Source: Verrucomicrobium sp. BvORR034
GTDB taxonomy: Bacteria; Verrucomicrobiota; Verrucomicrobiia; Verrucomicrobiales; Verrucomicrobiaceae
DNA: 64,000 nt
Direction of reading: 5' to 3'
Assembly: GCF_000739635.1 (NCBI RefSeq)
Contig: NZ_BATQ01000049.1
Coordinates: 1-64,000, forward strand
Under the pieces are notes generated by a model, which was not told the DNA's origin, did not search any database, and saw only the letters and a list, made by a program, of their open reading frames with translations. Shown here piece by piece: positions 59,082 to 63,380 of this stretch. Every line of letters begins with the position of its first letter. The stretch's first letter is position 1. A program made the translations under genes and the position numbers.

Positions 59082-59297
59082 GGTGAAAAGTGGTGGGGCT
59101 GCGGACAAACTTGGGGCCAGGACGGAGCGGGCGATACCTAGGGTGGCAAAAGCTGGGGGTCAAGGTGGTTTCGTGAGGGAGCCGTGTACTCGCAGTGGAG
59201 GGGAGAGGGCGCGGAGCCGCTGCTTTGCGGTTGTCAAACGGAGCGGCGCGGCTATAACATCGCGCCCCTTTCCGCCAGACAGCAGTTCTTCTCCCAC

Positions 59298-60302
59298 ATG
59301 GTCATTCGTAAAAAAGCACACGCGCGCGCCGGCTTGGTCGGCAATCCATCCGACGGATATTTTGGGAAGACCATCTCCTTTGTGATCCGGAACTACGAGG
59401 CGGAAATCGTCCTGTTCGAAACACCGGAACTGACGATTGAGCCGAGTGACCGTGACCATTCGGTCTTTCCCAGCATCGGTCAGCTGGCGCGAGACGTGGC
59501 CCAGTTTGGTTACTACGGTGGCATCCGCCTGCTCAAGGCGACGGTGAAGCGCTTCCACGACTACTGCTCGAAGGAAGGCATCGCCCTGCATGACCGCAAC
59601 TTCACCCTTCGCTACAGCAGCAACATCCCTCCGCAGGTGGGCATGGCAGGCAGCAGCGCGATCATCTGCGCCTGCCTGCGCGCGCTCATGGAGTTCTACG
59701 GAGTCGAGGAGCAGATTCCCAAGCACATTCAGCCCAGTCTGGTGCTCAGTGTGGAGAATGACGAACTGGGGATTCCAGCCGGCCTGCAGGATCGCGTCAT
59801 CCAGGTGTATGAGGGGGTGGTCTTCATGGACTTCAACCGCGGCCACATGGAAACCTATGGCCACGGCATCTACGAGGAGCTGGATCCGACCCTCCTGCCG
59901 AACGTGTATGTGGCCTACACAAAGCGCCTGAGCGAGGGGACGGAGGTCTTTCACAACGACATCCGCAGTCGTTGGAATCGCGGAGAACGGGAAGTGGTGT
60001 CTGCCATGTACCAGTGGGCAAATCTTGCCGAACGGGTGAAGGAGATGCTGCTCGCGGGAAGAGGGCGGGAAATCGGACCGCTTCTCAACGAGAACTTCGA
60101 TCTGCGTCGCCGGCTCTATAAGATCAGTCCGGGAAATCTGGAAATGGTGGACATCGCCCGCGACGTGGGGGCCAGCGCCAAGTTCACCGGGAGCGGTGGA
60201 GCGATTGTCGGCACCTTTGAGGATGAAGCCATGTTTGGCAGGCTGGTGGAGGCATTCCGCAGCCGGGACATTGAGGTGATCAATCCTCAAATCCTCCCCT
60301 GA
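59298..60302 (+). CDS. GHMP kinase, glucuronokinase-like
   Basis: A 334-residue GHMP kinase. HARAGLVGNPSDGYFGKTISF at the start, NIPPQVGMAGSSAI (ATP loop), ELGIPAGLQDRVIQVYEG in the middle and GASAKFTGSGGAIVG near the end closely follow the plant glucuronokinase (GLCAK) sequence pattern as I recall it. That enzyme makes glucuronate-1-phosphate from glucuronate. The next gene, 39 nt on, is a UTP-sugar-1-phosphate uridylyltransferase, which fits a UDP-glucuronate salvage route. Other GHMP sugar kinases are possible. Confidence 0.75.
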   Translation: MVIRKKAHARAGLVGNPSDGYFGKTISFVIRNYEAEIVLFETPELTIEPSDRDHSVFPSIGQLARDVAQFGYYGGIRLLKATVKRFHDYCSKEGIALHDRNFTLRYSSNIPPQVGMAGSSAIICACLRALMEFYGVEEQIPKHIQPSLVLSVENDELGIPAGLQDRVIQVYEGVVFMDFNRGHMETYGHGIYEELDPTLLPNVYVAYTKRLSEGTEVFHNDIRSRWNRGEREVVSAMYQWANLAERVKEMLLAGRGREIGPLLNENFDLRRRLYKISPGNLEMVDIARDVGASAKFTGSGGAIVGTFEDEAMFGRLVEAFRSRDIEVINPQILP

Positions 60303-60341
60303 TTCCAGCAACCTTTCACGTCAGACCGAGAACGATTCATC

Positions 60342-61223
60342 ATGACTGCTAAAGTGCGCAAAGCCGTGATCCCGGCCGCCGGGTTCGGCACCCGTTTCCT
60401 CCCCATCTCCAAAGCGGTGCCCAAGGAGATGCTCCCAGTGGTGGACAAGCCGGTGATCCAGTATGTGGTGGAGGAAGCTGTCGCGAGTGGCATCACTGAC
60501 ATCCTGCTGATCATCAGCCGCGGCAAACGGTCGATCGAGGAGCACTTCATCGCCAACCCCGAACTGGAAGCAGATCTGGAGGCGAAGGGGCGTCACGAGA
60601 CGCTGGCGGAACTGCGGCAACTGCAGTCCCTGGCGCGGATCCATTACGTGTTTCAGCCCAAGATGGGCGGTCTGGGGGATGCGGTGCGCTGCGCCCGGGA
60701 GCATGTGGGGGCTGAACCCTTCGCGGTGCTGCTGGGGGACGCGCTGGTCTCGCCTACGGATGGCGCGAAGCCAGTGCTGCGGCAGTTGCTGGATGTGCAT
60801 GAGCGCCATGGCGGCTCCACCGTTGCGCTGGAAGAAGTGCCGGCAGAGAAGGTAAGCCGGTATGGCATTCTGGGTGGCGCTGAGATCGAGCCCGGGGTGT
60901 TTAAAGCGGACAAATTTGTGGAGAAGCCCAGTCCTGCGGAGGCTCCCTCCCGGCTGGCGGTGTCGGCCCGCTACATCCTTTCGCCTTCCATCTTCGAGCA
61001 ACTGGAGCAGACCCCGACCGGCAAGGGCGGAGAACTGCAACTGACCGATGCCATGGCGGCACTGATGCAGCGGGAGGCTCTCTACGGCGTTCGCTACGCG
61101 GGGCGGAGGCATGATATCGGCAACAAGCTCGATTTCGTGAAAGCCAATCTCTGGTGGGGCCTGCAGCGGGAGGATATGCGCGAGGAACTGAAGCGTTATC
61201 TGGCCGGATTGCTCGAACAGTAG
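60342..61223 (+). CDS. galU: UTP--glucose-1-phosphate uridylyltransferase (GalU)
   Basis: A 293-residue nucleotidyltransferase: IPAAGFGTRFLPISKAVPKEMLP (UTP loop and metal site), DKPVIQYVVEEAVASGI, LLGDALVSPTDGAKP and VEKPSPAEAPS are GalU motifs. It makes UDP-glucose, or another UDP-sugar if selective. Located 39 nt behind the glucuronokinase-like gene and upstream of the oxidoreductase/lpxB pair. Confidence 0.93.
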   Translation: MTAKVRKAVIPAAGFGTRFLPISKAVPKEMLPVVDKPVIQYVVEEAVASGITDILLIISRGKRSIEEHFIANPELEADLEAKGRHETLAELRQLQSLARIHYVFQPKMGGLGDAVRCAREHVGAEPFAVLLGDALVSPTDGAKPVLRQLLDVHERHGGSTVALEEVPAEKVSRYGILGGAEIEPGVFKADKFVEKPSPAEAPSRLAVSARYILSPSIFEQLEQTPTGKGGELQLTDAMAALMQREALYGVRYAGRRHDIGNKLDFVKANLWWGLQREDMREELKRYLAGLLEQ

Positions 61224-61296: not shown

Positions 61297-62235
61297 ATGA
61301 GTGATCGTATCAAAGTTGGAGTCGCCGGAGTCGGTGCCATGGGGAAGAACCACGCCCGCGTGCTGTCTGGTCTGCCCGGGGCGCAACTGACGGCGATCTA
61401 TGATCTGGACCGGGCTCGCGCCGAAGAGCTGGCGTCCCTCTACGGTGCCAAGGCGGTGACCACTCTGGAAGAACTCGCCGCGGAAGTGGACGCTGCGGCG
61501 GTGGCGGTTCCCACCATTGCCCACCGTCAGGTGGCGGGCTTCCTGCTCGAGCAGGGGAAGCACGTGCTGGTGGAAAAACCGCTCAGCGAGTCCCTCACCG
61601 AGGCTCAAGAACTGGTGGCTTTGGCGGATGCAAAGGGGCTGGTGCTGCAGGTGGGGCACATTGAGCGATTCAACCCGGTGATGAAGCAACTGGAGAGCCG
61701 GATGCAACAGCCGCGCTTCATTGAGGCCACCCGGCTTTCTCCTTTCCCGAACCGGAGCATGGACATCGGCGTGGTGCTGGATGTGATGATCCATGACCTT
61801 GAGATCATTCTGCACCTTGTGCGCTCGCCCGTAGTAAGCGTGGATGCTGTGGGAGTGCCGGTGCTGACTCGGCGGGAGGATATTGCCAATGCGCGCCTGC
61901 GCTTCGCCAATGGCTGTGTGGCCAACGTCACCTCCAGCCGCGTGAGTGACAAGAAGATGCGGAAGATTCAGGTCTTCCACGGGGAAGGCTACATCTCGCT
62001 CGACTACCAGGAGCAGTCCGGGCACATGTATCGCCGCGAGGGCATGGGGATCGCCCGTGAGGATGTGCCGGTGGAGAAGGATGAGCCCCTCAAGCTGGAA
62101 CTCGCCGCCTTCGTGGATTGTGCCCGGCAGGGCGCGACGCCGGTGGTGAGCGGGCAGCAGGGAACAGAGGCGCTTAAGCTGGCGATTTTGATCACGCAGG
62201 CCATTGAGAAGAACGAGCCGGTGCACTTGTCATGA
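61297..62235 (+). CDS. Gfo/Idh/MocA-family oxidoreductase coupled to lpxB
   Basis: A 312-residue cytosolic enzyme: VGVAGVGAMGKNHARVL (NAD loop), VEKPLSESLTEAQ (catalytic Lys region), GHIERFNPVMKQL and DVMIHDLEIILHLV. No signal peptide, unlike the member at 36754. Its stop overlaps the lpxB start by 4 nt (ATGA), implying a role in lipid A or UDP-amino-sugar synthesis. Homologues near lpx genes include GnnA, which oxidises UDP-GlcNAc at C3; a GnnB aminotransferase is not in view, so the exact reaction is open. Confidence 0.88.
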   Translation: MSDRIKVGVAGVGAMGKNHARVLSGLPGAQLTAIYDLDRARAEELASLYGAKAVTTLEELAAEVDAAAVAVPTIAHRQVAGFLLEQGKHVLVEKPLSESLTEAQELVALADAKGLVLQVGHIERFNPVMKQLESRMQQPRFIEATRLSPFPNRSMDIGVVLDVMIHDLEIILHLVRSPVVSVDAVGVPVLTRREDIANARLRFANGCVANVTSSRVSDKKMRKIQVFHGEGYISLDYQEQSGHMYRREGMGIAREDVPVEKDEPLKLELAAFVDCARQGATPVVSGQQGTEALKLAILITQAIEKNEPVHLS

Positions 62236-63380
62236 GAAAGCTTTTTCTCCTGGCGGGCGAGATCAGCGGGGACACGCACGGCTCCGGATTGATGCGCAGT
62301 CTCCTCGAACTTTCGGGTGGGGAAGAGGTGCGGTTCTACGGCTACGGTGGCCCCCAGATGAAAGAGGTGGGCGGTGACGCCATGCTCGACTGGGTGGAGG
62401 ATGCCGGTGTGGTGGGCCTCTGGGAGGTCCTCAAGGTTTACGGCTGGTTCAAGCAGAAGATGGCCGATGCCCTGGCCATTGTGGCCCGCGAGAAACCGGA
62501 TGCGGTGATCCTGGTGGACTATCCCGGCTTCAATCTGCGTCTGGCAAAGTCTCTCCGCGACGCCGGCTACGACCGCCCGATCATCTACTACATCAGCCCG
62601 CAGGTGTGGGCCTGGAAGAAGGGCCGCGTGAAGACGATGGCTCAACTGCTGGATCTGATGATCTGCATCTTCCCGTTTGAGAAGGAGCTATATGAGAAGA
62701 GTGGTCTCAAGACGGAATTTGCCGGGCATCCCATGGTGGACCGCGTCAAATCCCTGACCAAAAACATCTCGCGTCAGCTGGACCTGGTGGGGTTCTTTCC
62801 CGGAAGCCGCGCCAATGAAGTGCGGCGCCTTTTCCCGACCTTGATCCAGACGGCCCAACGCCTGCAATCGCAGCGGCCGGGGACACGGTTCGTGGTAAGT
62901 GCAGCCAATGCCAGGCTGGCAGGTCTCATGCAGGAGCTGGCGGACGCTGTGGGCTTCCCGGAAGCGAAGGAGTGGATCGAGATCGGCACCGTGTATGATC
63001 TCATGCAACAGGTGCAGGTGGGCGTGGTGGCCAGTGGCACGGCGACACTGGAGTCTGCCTGTTTTGGCATGCCTTACATTCTGGTGTATCAAGTCAACCC
63101 GCTCACTTACGTGGTGGGCAGGGCGGTGATGCGTATCAAGTTCCTCGGCATCGTGAACATCCTGGCGGGACGTCAGGTGGTGAAGGAGATGGTGCAGGGC
63201 GACTTCCGCCCCGAGCCGCTGGCCGCAGGCGTGCTGGAACTGATGGACGAGGGCGAGGCCCGGAAAAGCCTGCTCCAGGACCTGCGGGAGACCGTGGGGC
63301 GACTGGGAGAGGGCGGTGCCTACCAAAGGGCTGCGCAGGCCGTCTGGGAGCAGGTGGCGCAGGCCCCAGTCAAAGCGTAA
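62232..63380 (+). CDS. lpxB: Lipid-A-disaccharide synthase
   Basis: A 382-residue GT19 glycosyltransferase. LLAGEISGDTHGS at the start, VDYPGFNLRLAK, ISPQVWAWKKGRV, FAGHPMVDR, GFFPGSRANEVRRLFP and ASGTATLESACFGMPYILVY are the family motifs. It joins UDP-2,3-diacylglucosamine with lipid X to form the lipid A disaccharide. Its presence shows a lipopolysaccharide-bearing outer membrane. Confidence 0.95.
   Translation: MRKLFLLAGEISGDTHGSGLMRSLLELSGGEEVRFYGYGGPQMKEVGGDAMLDWVEDAGVVGLWEVLKVYGWFKQKMADALAIVAREKPDAVILVDYPGFNLRLAKSLRDAGYDRPIIYYISPQVWAWKKGRVKTMAQLLDLMICIFPFEKELYEKSGLKTEFAGHPMVDRVKSLTKNISRQLDLVGFFPGSRANEVRRLFPTLIQTAQRLQSQRPGTRFVVSAANARLAGLMQELADAVGFPEAKEWIEIGTVYDLMQQVQVGVVASGTATLESACFGMPYILVYQVNPLTYVVGRAVMRIKFLGIVNILAGRQVVKEMVQGDFRPEPLAAGVLELMDEGEARKSLLQDLRETVGRLGEGGAYQRAAQAVWEQVAQAPVKA

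Follow-up and report, generated by a model that had tools for sequence, protein, structure and literature searches.

Organization of the kinase-galU region

The window, i.e. the whole 64,000-nucleotide stretch of DNA analysed here, contains two ORFs on the + strand separated by 39 nt. The features of this region are:

59231..59260, + strand: weak sigma-70-like promoter pattern (9/12 matches), 37 nt upstream of the kinase start
59298 (ATG)..60302 (TGA), + strand: kinase ORF, 334 aa, a probable glucuronokinase of the GHMP superfamily (from Pfam domains, family alignments, tree and AlphaFold model)
60342 (ATG)..61223 (TAG), + strand: GalU-type uridylyltransferase, 293 aa, of a kinase-associated clade (from TIGR01099, clade and residue pattern)
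61297-62235, + strand: Gfo/Idh oxidoreductase gene, downstream of galU
62232-63380, + strand: lpxB (TIGR00215, 246.8 bits, above the cut-off), after the Gfo/Idh gene

Upstream of the kinase gene lies deoC, on the opposite strand (TIGR00126, 186.7 bits, above the cut-off). The promoter pattern was observed once against 0.3 occurrences expected from shuffles. A longer kinase frame with a GTG start at 59184 is available; the family alignment starts at the ATG instead. The Gfo/Idh gene overlaps the start of lpxB and its product best matched the NCBIfam model for UDP-N-acetylglucosamine 3-dehydrogenase (238.2 bits, below the cut-off of 450); it may belong to a GnnA-type step of lipid A synthesis. 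Both genes were sought beside GalU at the loci of the window's own taxonomic family and neither was present there.

The kinase contains the GHMP_kinases_N (PF00288, 43.3 bits) and GHMP_kinases_C (PF08544, 26.8 bits) domains, both above the Pfam cut-offs, and the motifs GNPSDGYFGKTIS, AGLQDRV and AKFTGSGGA. The second protein matched the NTP_transferase domain of Pfam (107.6 bits) and the NCBIfam model TIGR01099 galU with 334.9 bits (cut-off 326.8), the sole such match in the genome. Its phmmer score against YngB of B. subtilis (PDB 7b1r) was 292 bits.

The kinase family and its probable kinship to glucuronokinases

No NCBIfam equivalog model was matched by the window kinase above its cut-off. 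The top curated-model and PDB sequence matches were mevalonate and heptose kinases, with 50.6 bits for the mevalonate kinase model TIGR00549 (cut-off 163.05) and 39.6 bits for the heptose 7-phosphate kinase HddA model NF049969 (cut-off 600); galactokinase models gave 20.0 bits (cut-off 509) and 18.9 bits (cut-off 443).

The kinase was searched for in 288 genomes sampled from the phylum and matches at E 0.001 or better were obtained in 126 of them. They fell into two groups: close relatives with 44-81% identity, nearly all full-length (98 loci in 97 genomes, the window's genome included), and remote GHMP kinases with 22-36% identity over partial length. One genome carried the close-relative gene in two pieces (47% and 39% identity). 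A scan of named species genomes yielded at least 567 relatives among at least 586 matched stretches, and 80 named loci were kept. Their titles cover Verrucomicrobiota, Planctomycetota, Hydrogenedentota, Kiritimatiellota, Lentisphaerae, Chloroflexota, Acidobacteria, Chitinivibrionales, KSB1 and one Actinomycetota MAG; since many named loci derive from MAGs, a phylum represented by one bin is uncertain. Among the viral contigs scanned, 21 stretches matched and none was a relative. The window kinase thus belongs to a wide, sharply separated bacterial family.

The plant enzyme was represented by a provisional Arabidopsis GLCAK1 sequence (362 aa) that was entered by hand rather than from a database record; it was the sole eukaryotic row. 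Over 306 residues this provisional GLCAK1 shared 45% identity with the window kinase. It kept 54 of the 60 near-invariant positions of the family, and its score against the profile built from 54 family members was 349.8 bits, in comparison to 63.9 bits for the best of 15 other GHMP kinases from the phylum. A rapidly searched ML tree set these 15 kinases apart from 70 family rows together with the plant row, the dividing branch having a length of 5.8 changes per column and an SH-aLRT of 99, the sole support measure used; 14 of the 84 family rows had been removed as near-copies and the program issued a long-branch warning. The bacterial family as one side without the plant row had a support of 74; the plant row may fall either inside or beside the bacterial rows.

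The residue following the presumed catalytic Asp165 is Arg in 84/84 family rows and Gln in 15/15 other GHMP kinases. Arg166 of the window kinase is proposed as a ligand of the substrate carboxylate. The AlphaFold model of the kinase (pLDDT 91.6, pTM 0.89) gave the heptokinase WcbL and mevalonate kinases as first Foldseek matches, and galactokinases came first when ranked by Z (about 31, many tied). Such matches reflect one superfamily fold and say nothing on substrate. The HddA/WcbL heptose kinases and the galactokinases share this fold and the GHMP motifs, but they are 12-21% identical to the window kinase among the structure alignments listed and their curated cut-offs are far from being reached. 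Identity as a heptose, galactose or mevalonate kinase was rejected on these model scores and on the separation in the tree and the profile. Judged from its homology and gene context, the window enzyme is very probably a glucuronokinase.

The first-pass annotation had described a GHMP kinase with a uridylyltransferase 39 nt downstream, and the ORFs, strand, gap, Pfam domains and TIGR01099 confirm this. The kinase motifs that it quoted are present, the SKFTGSGGA-type ending reading AKFTGSGGA. It had also named a firm place among heptose or galactose kinases in a phylogeny as an outcome that would speak against its assignment; no such place was obtained, the family together with the provisional plant row splitting from the 15 other GHMP kinases. 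The name "plant-type glucuronokinase" agrees with the grouping with that row and is too narrow for a family so wide in bacteria. According to PMC3938481 such enzymes occur also in fish and frog.

Pairing of the kinase with GalU-type genes

A GalU-type gene was present within 400 nt on the same strand at 65 of the 98 kinase loci of the phylum sample. It was placed just downstream of the kinase at 61 loci, in 21 of the 24 kinase-holding taxonomic families, and just upstream at 4 loci, all of family f33; 29 loci had no adjoining GalU-type gene and 4 ended at a contig edge. The same arrangement was found at 52 of the 80 named loci (50 downstream and 2 upstream, both Chloroflexota), with 24 loci showing none and 4 being contig-cut; the two sets have genomes in common. 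Adjacency as a peculiarity of the window genome is ruled out by these linked loci, and the pairing of kinase and GalU is not accidental. In the window's five same-family relatives (G066, G187, G190, G199, G231) the kinase has no adjoining GalU and GalU is encoded elsewhere in the genome, and ten Verrucomicrobiaceae-like named loci (L165-L174) have no GalU near the kinase. The window's arrangement is therefore common in the phylum and an exception within its own family.

Other genes of nucleotide-sugar metabolism recur at these loci. At 5 of 7 loci of family f21 (G103, G109, G123 and the two G170 copies) the 3' end of a nucleotide-sugar dehydrogenase gene lies no more than 20 nt from where the kinase begins, and three loci have an epimerase gene after the kinase; the best scores of the G170 neighbours were to UDP-glucose 6-dehydrogenase and a GalE-like epimerase, both below equivalog cut-offs. 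Among the 80 named loci an epimerase gene follows GalU at 14, all with Planctomycetota-type titles, and in 5 of these (one contig-cut) a dehydrogenase gene precedes the kinase. At one of the named loci, L198, the dehydrogenase had UDP-glucose dehydrogenases as its closest solved structures and the epimerase was closest to 5u4q, 6zl6 and, fifth, MoeE5 (6kv9). 6zl6 is the UDP-glucuronate 4-epimerase of Bacillus cereus. MoeE5 is described as a UDP-glucuronate 4-epimerase in PMC7984243, and the stretch matching the carboxylate-binding Ser/Thr run given there reads SSSSVYG in 12 of 13 Planctomycetota epimerases (L227 is not among the 13, and L200 came out in another frame) and also in the f21 one.

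The pair was also found in another phylum, on mobilizable plasmid 1 of Rufibacter tibetensis (Bacteroidota):

L295:12001-13939, + strand: "GHMP kinase", then galU 70 nt on

Its presence on a mobilizable plasmid is a sign of transfer as a unit. In this one annotated record the RefSeq name of the family member is "GHMP kinase" and nothing more.

Several further gene arrangements were noted. At the f36 loci L083 (G107), L053 (G133) and L113 (G212) a related gene, hexokinase-like by eye, lies just upstream of the kinase. A non-GalU nucleotidyltransferase of 246 aa follows the kinase in G179 of family f32 (L115:3001-3738, + strand; best NCBIfam match AglF, 90.7 bits, cut-off 400); in size it resembles the transferase part of the zebrafish protein discussed below. 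A fusion of 640 aa, starting with a GHMP kinase and ending with a GalU-type uridylyltransferase, is encoded at L148:699-2618 (+ strand), with similar ones at L149 and L150 (three genomes), and the PDB matches of its kinase half were all galactokinases and a homoserine kinase. Other genomes, kinase-free ones included, have frames of about 640-700 aa that scored 130-197 bits as GalU and may be the same fusion. In G259 (L058) a fusion-like frame of 686 aa lies between a nucleotide-sugar dehydrogenase gene and a GalU-glucuronokinase pair.

Co-occurrence of GalU and the kinase

Two sets of 50 genomes, picked by hand from the 97 with the kinase and the 191 without it, were searched in full with TIGR01099. 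A match above 250 bits was obtained for 37 of the 50 kinase-bearing genomes, 25 of which exceeded the curated cut-off, in comparison to 0 of the 50 kinase-free ones, whose best score was 196.5 bits. The Fisher value of 2e-16 is no fair probability because the compared genomes are related. Within single families, of which there were few cases overall, GalU was present in kinase-bearing vs kinase-free genomes as 6/6 vs 0/4 (f16), 2/2 vs 0/4 (f21) and 1/1 vs 0/1 (each of f24 and f31); in f21 GalU tracks the kinase though the two genes are unlinked. The 13 kinase-bearing genomes with no GalU above 250 bits belong to f32 (seven), f33 (four), f36 (G107) and f19 (G244). The contig of G244 stops 345 nt past the kinase, and three f33 loci carry a shorter GalU-like gene of about 250 aa just upstream of it.

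Kinase-free genomes of family f2 encode a UGP2-type PF01704 protein (about 390-400 bits) in place of GalU, so that some of the co-occurrence could reflect one UDP-glucose enzyme being swapped for another. In f16 and f21, PF01704 matches of 100-130 bits were found in tested genomes both with and without the kinase, and GalU there is thus not a simple replacement for the PF01704 family. The swap explains the co-occurrence in part at most.

Properties of the kinase-associated GalU proteins

The kinase-linked GalUs (121 rows) were compared with 13 outside GalUs, i.e. two PDB chains and eleven plasmid copies; among the linked rows some genomes are counted twice, as present in two collections, and some GalUs lie more than 400 nt from the kinase. 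Between the outside and the linked proteins column 113 changes from His to Asp (98/121), column 134 mostly from Asp to Thr (107/121) and column 228 mostly from Ala to Lys or Arg (102/121), and Ala occupies column 208 in 109/121 linked GalUs. Further changes were from Arg to an aromatic residue at column 104, from Leu to Phe at column 15 and from Thr to Ile at column 58. There are exceptions on both sides: 10 linked GalUs retain His113, including the f33 and Chloroflexota ones shown, and 2 of the 13 outside GalUs have Arg228. The linked pattern extends to nine unlinked GalUs of kinase-bearing genomes (D113 in 8, K228 in 9). The window GalU resembles canonical GalU, such as YngB, in passing TIGR01099, but it has D113, A134, S208 and K228 where canonical enzymes have mostly His, Asp, a larger residue and Ala.

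In a quick-search tree of 71 of the 143 rows, with SH-aLRT as the sole support, 45 of 58 GalUs from kinase genomes formed one clade (SH-aLRT 97) that included the window, unlinked and Rufibacter copies, and 12 of the 13 outside GalUs formed another group (SH-aLRT 93), in which the window GalU was not placed. GalUs of kinase genomes thus fall mostly in a clade separate from canonical GalU. The 13 that lie outside it (f33, Chloroflexota and a few more) suggest more than one recruitment.

The changed residues and the clade fit a specialised substrate site. If the kinase is a glucuronokinase, its product is likely to be a substrate of the GalU protein. That the GalU clade is dedicated to glucuronate-1-phosphate is a more tentative proposal, which we are inclined to doubt somewhat.

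Other relevant enzymes in the genome of the window

Two nucleotide-sugar dehydrogenases of the genome scored above the TIGR03026 subfamily cut-off, and salvage as a substitute for a missing UDP-glucose dehydrogenase was rejected on these two matches. The one encoded at L155 best matched the UDP-glucose dehydrogenase TuaD (512.1 bits, below the cut-off of 700). The other, at L156, adjoins a heparinase-like gene, a glycosyltransferase gene and an O-antigen-ligase-family gene, which suggests the use of a UDP-uronate in surface polysaccharide. By these matches the genome probably encodes a UDP-glucose dehydrogenase. It also encodes a glucuronate isomerase of the UxaC family (638.6 bits), so uronates are probably met as nutrients; this enzyme competes with the kinase for glucuronate. 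As for sources of glucuronate, myo-inositol oxygenase (PF05153) had no match in the window genome or in any of 14 control genomes, and GH115 was not found in the window genome, with a control match in 2 of the 14.

A PF01704 search of 58 genomes gave matches in 45 of them and none in the window's genome. No UDP-glucose pyrophosphorylase candidate other than the window GalU was recognised in its genome; since a source of UDP-glucose is needed, a dual role of GalU is likely there. A nucleotidyltransferase of 304 aa (G000:C35; L160:3578-4489) is conceivable as another source of UDP-glucose; its Pfam match is weak (27.5 bits), and at 1e-8 it matched no NCBIfam model.

Proposed pathway and alternative explanations

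The kinase-GalU pair is, on the comparative sequence evidence, probably a module for UDP-glucuronate salvage, a reading that we favour with some reserve. From its homology and context the GHMP kinase would use ATP to phosphorylate free D-glucuronate at C1, giving glucuronate-1-phosphate. The GalU-type enzyme would then convert glucuronate-1-phosphate and UTP into UDP-glucuronate and pyrophosphate; this step, suggested by linkage, co-occurrence and changed residues, is less sure than the first. Several observations speak against the module: the 29 kinase loci with no adjoining GalU-type gene, the 13 kinase-bearing genomes with no GalU above 250 bits, the probable need for the window GalU to make UDP-glucose, the competing UxaC, and the extremely low activity of the pyrophosphorylase half in zebrafish (PMC3938481). 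Six UDP-glucose pyrophosphorylases tested elsewhere were moreover specific for glucose-1-phosphate (PMC12203929). Salvaged UDP-glucuronate would join the pool filled also by UDP-glucose dehydrogenase and could feed surface polysaccharide synthesis, and the window GalU may additionally supply UDP-glucose to that dehydrogenase. The salvage claim of the first-pass annotation is backed by the separation of the kinase family, its closeness to the provisional plant sequence, GalU linkage in two gene orders and the dehydrogenase and epimerase neighbours; its idea of a route dispensing with UDP-glucose dehydrogenase gives way to an additional route, as such an enzyme is probably present. The choice of GalU as the partner agrees with the recurrent linkage, but the sole UDP-glucose pyrophosphorylase candidate may not be dedicated to glucuronate-1-phosphate.

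A bolder proposal is that the GalUs accompanying the kinase constitute a distinct, unrecognised UTP:glucuronate-1-phosphate uridylyltransferase, the missing bacterial counterpart of the plant UDP-sugar pyrophosphorylase, which would co-evolve with the kinase even when unlinked. Their pairing with the kinase would have arisen repeatedly (in the main clade, in f33 and in Chloroflexota), and the two would have spread together from phylum to phylum, plasmid carriage included. On the sequence patterns we regard this as finely balanced, tilting a little against.

The most serious alternative, which we nevertheless hold unlikely, accepts the glucuronokinase and assigns to GalU the synthesis of UDP-glucose only: the two genes would stand together since both supply the UDP-glucuronate pool, and another enzyme would use glucuronate-1-phosphate. 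The window GalU does pass the curated GalU model and is the sole GalU of a genome with no PF01704 match, and a dehydrogenase is encoded in the genome and in some kinase operons. Against this explanation, GalU goes with the kinase inside four taxonomic families and also where the two genes lie apart, PF01704 proteins occur on both sides of the comparison in f16 and f21, and the GalU residues depart from the canonical ones.

A different uronic acid or sugar as the kinase substrate, e.g. galacturonate, is improbable; the module would then salvage that compound, and its product could still reach the UDP-glucuronate pool with the help of a 4-epimerase. Substrates of GHMP kinases vary, and a context of UDP-glucuronate/UDP-galacturonate epimerases cannot distinguish the two acids; however, the window kinase is close to the provisional plant glucuronokinase sequence. 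According to PMC3938481 the galacturonate kinase of plants has a sequence far removed from that of glucuronokinase, and galacturonate is not used by the zebrafish enzyme. A heptose, galactose or mevalonate kinase standing by chance beside a housekeeping galU is hardly credible: the top curated-model and PDB sequence matches are indeed mevalonate and heptose kinases, but these lie far below cut-off, the tree and the profile separate the family, and the linkage recurs in two orders and several phyla.

Relation to known systems and significance

The proposed salvage module shares with the plant glucuronokinase (GLCAK, EC 2.7.1.43) and UDP-sugar pyrophosphorylase (USP) a kinase homologous over most of its length and the two-step logic, but the bacterial second enzyme is of the GalU type, not USP, and the bacterial genes are often adjacent. 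In zebrafish DrGKUP, too, a glucuronokinase is coupled with a bacterial-type nucleotidyltransferase; as described in PMC3938481, however, this is one fused protein with the transferase first, of about 260 aa and of another type. The window pair consists instead of two ORFs, with the kinase first and a GalU-type protein of 293 aa, and so is not such a fused protein. The same source reports that the zebrafish enzyme used glucuronate only, of nine sugars, with a Km of 31 uM, that the pyrophosphorylase activity of its N-terminal nucleotidyltransferase on its own was extremely low, and that bacterial and archaeal members of that transferase type are stand-alone according to the authors (PMC3938481). 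The window pair is best read as a bacterial variant of the known plant and animal glucuronate salvage pathway, the variant itself being new.

An experimentally studied bacterial glucuronokinase was not found among the matches listed in the open full-text literature. KEGG K16190 (GLCAK) has been reported from a gut metagenome (PMC10687571), which indicates that genes of this kind are already labelled in microbial sequence sets by automatic annotation. In vitro synthesis of UDP-glucuronate has relied on enzymes from Arabidopsis (PMC6888640, PMC11868170), and bacterial enzymes would be on offer for the same purpose if the salvage reading is correct.

If the proposed pathway is true, a large family named just "GHMP kinase" in the annotated record would gain a function, and the naming of some GalU proteins would become open to direct test. 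A salvage route shown by experiment in plants and partly in fish would then prove to be common among bacteria, most of all in Verrucomicrobiota and Planctomycetota.
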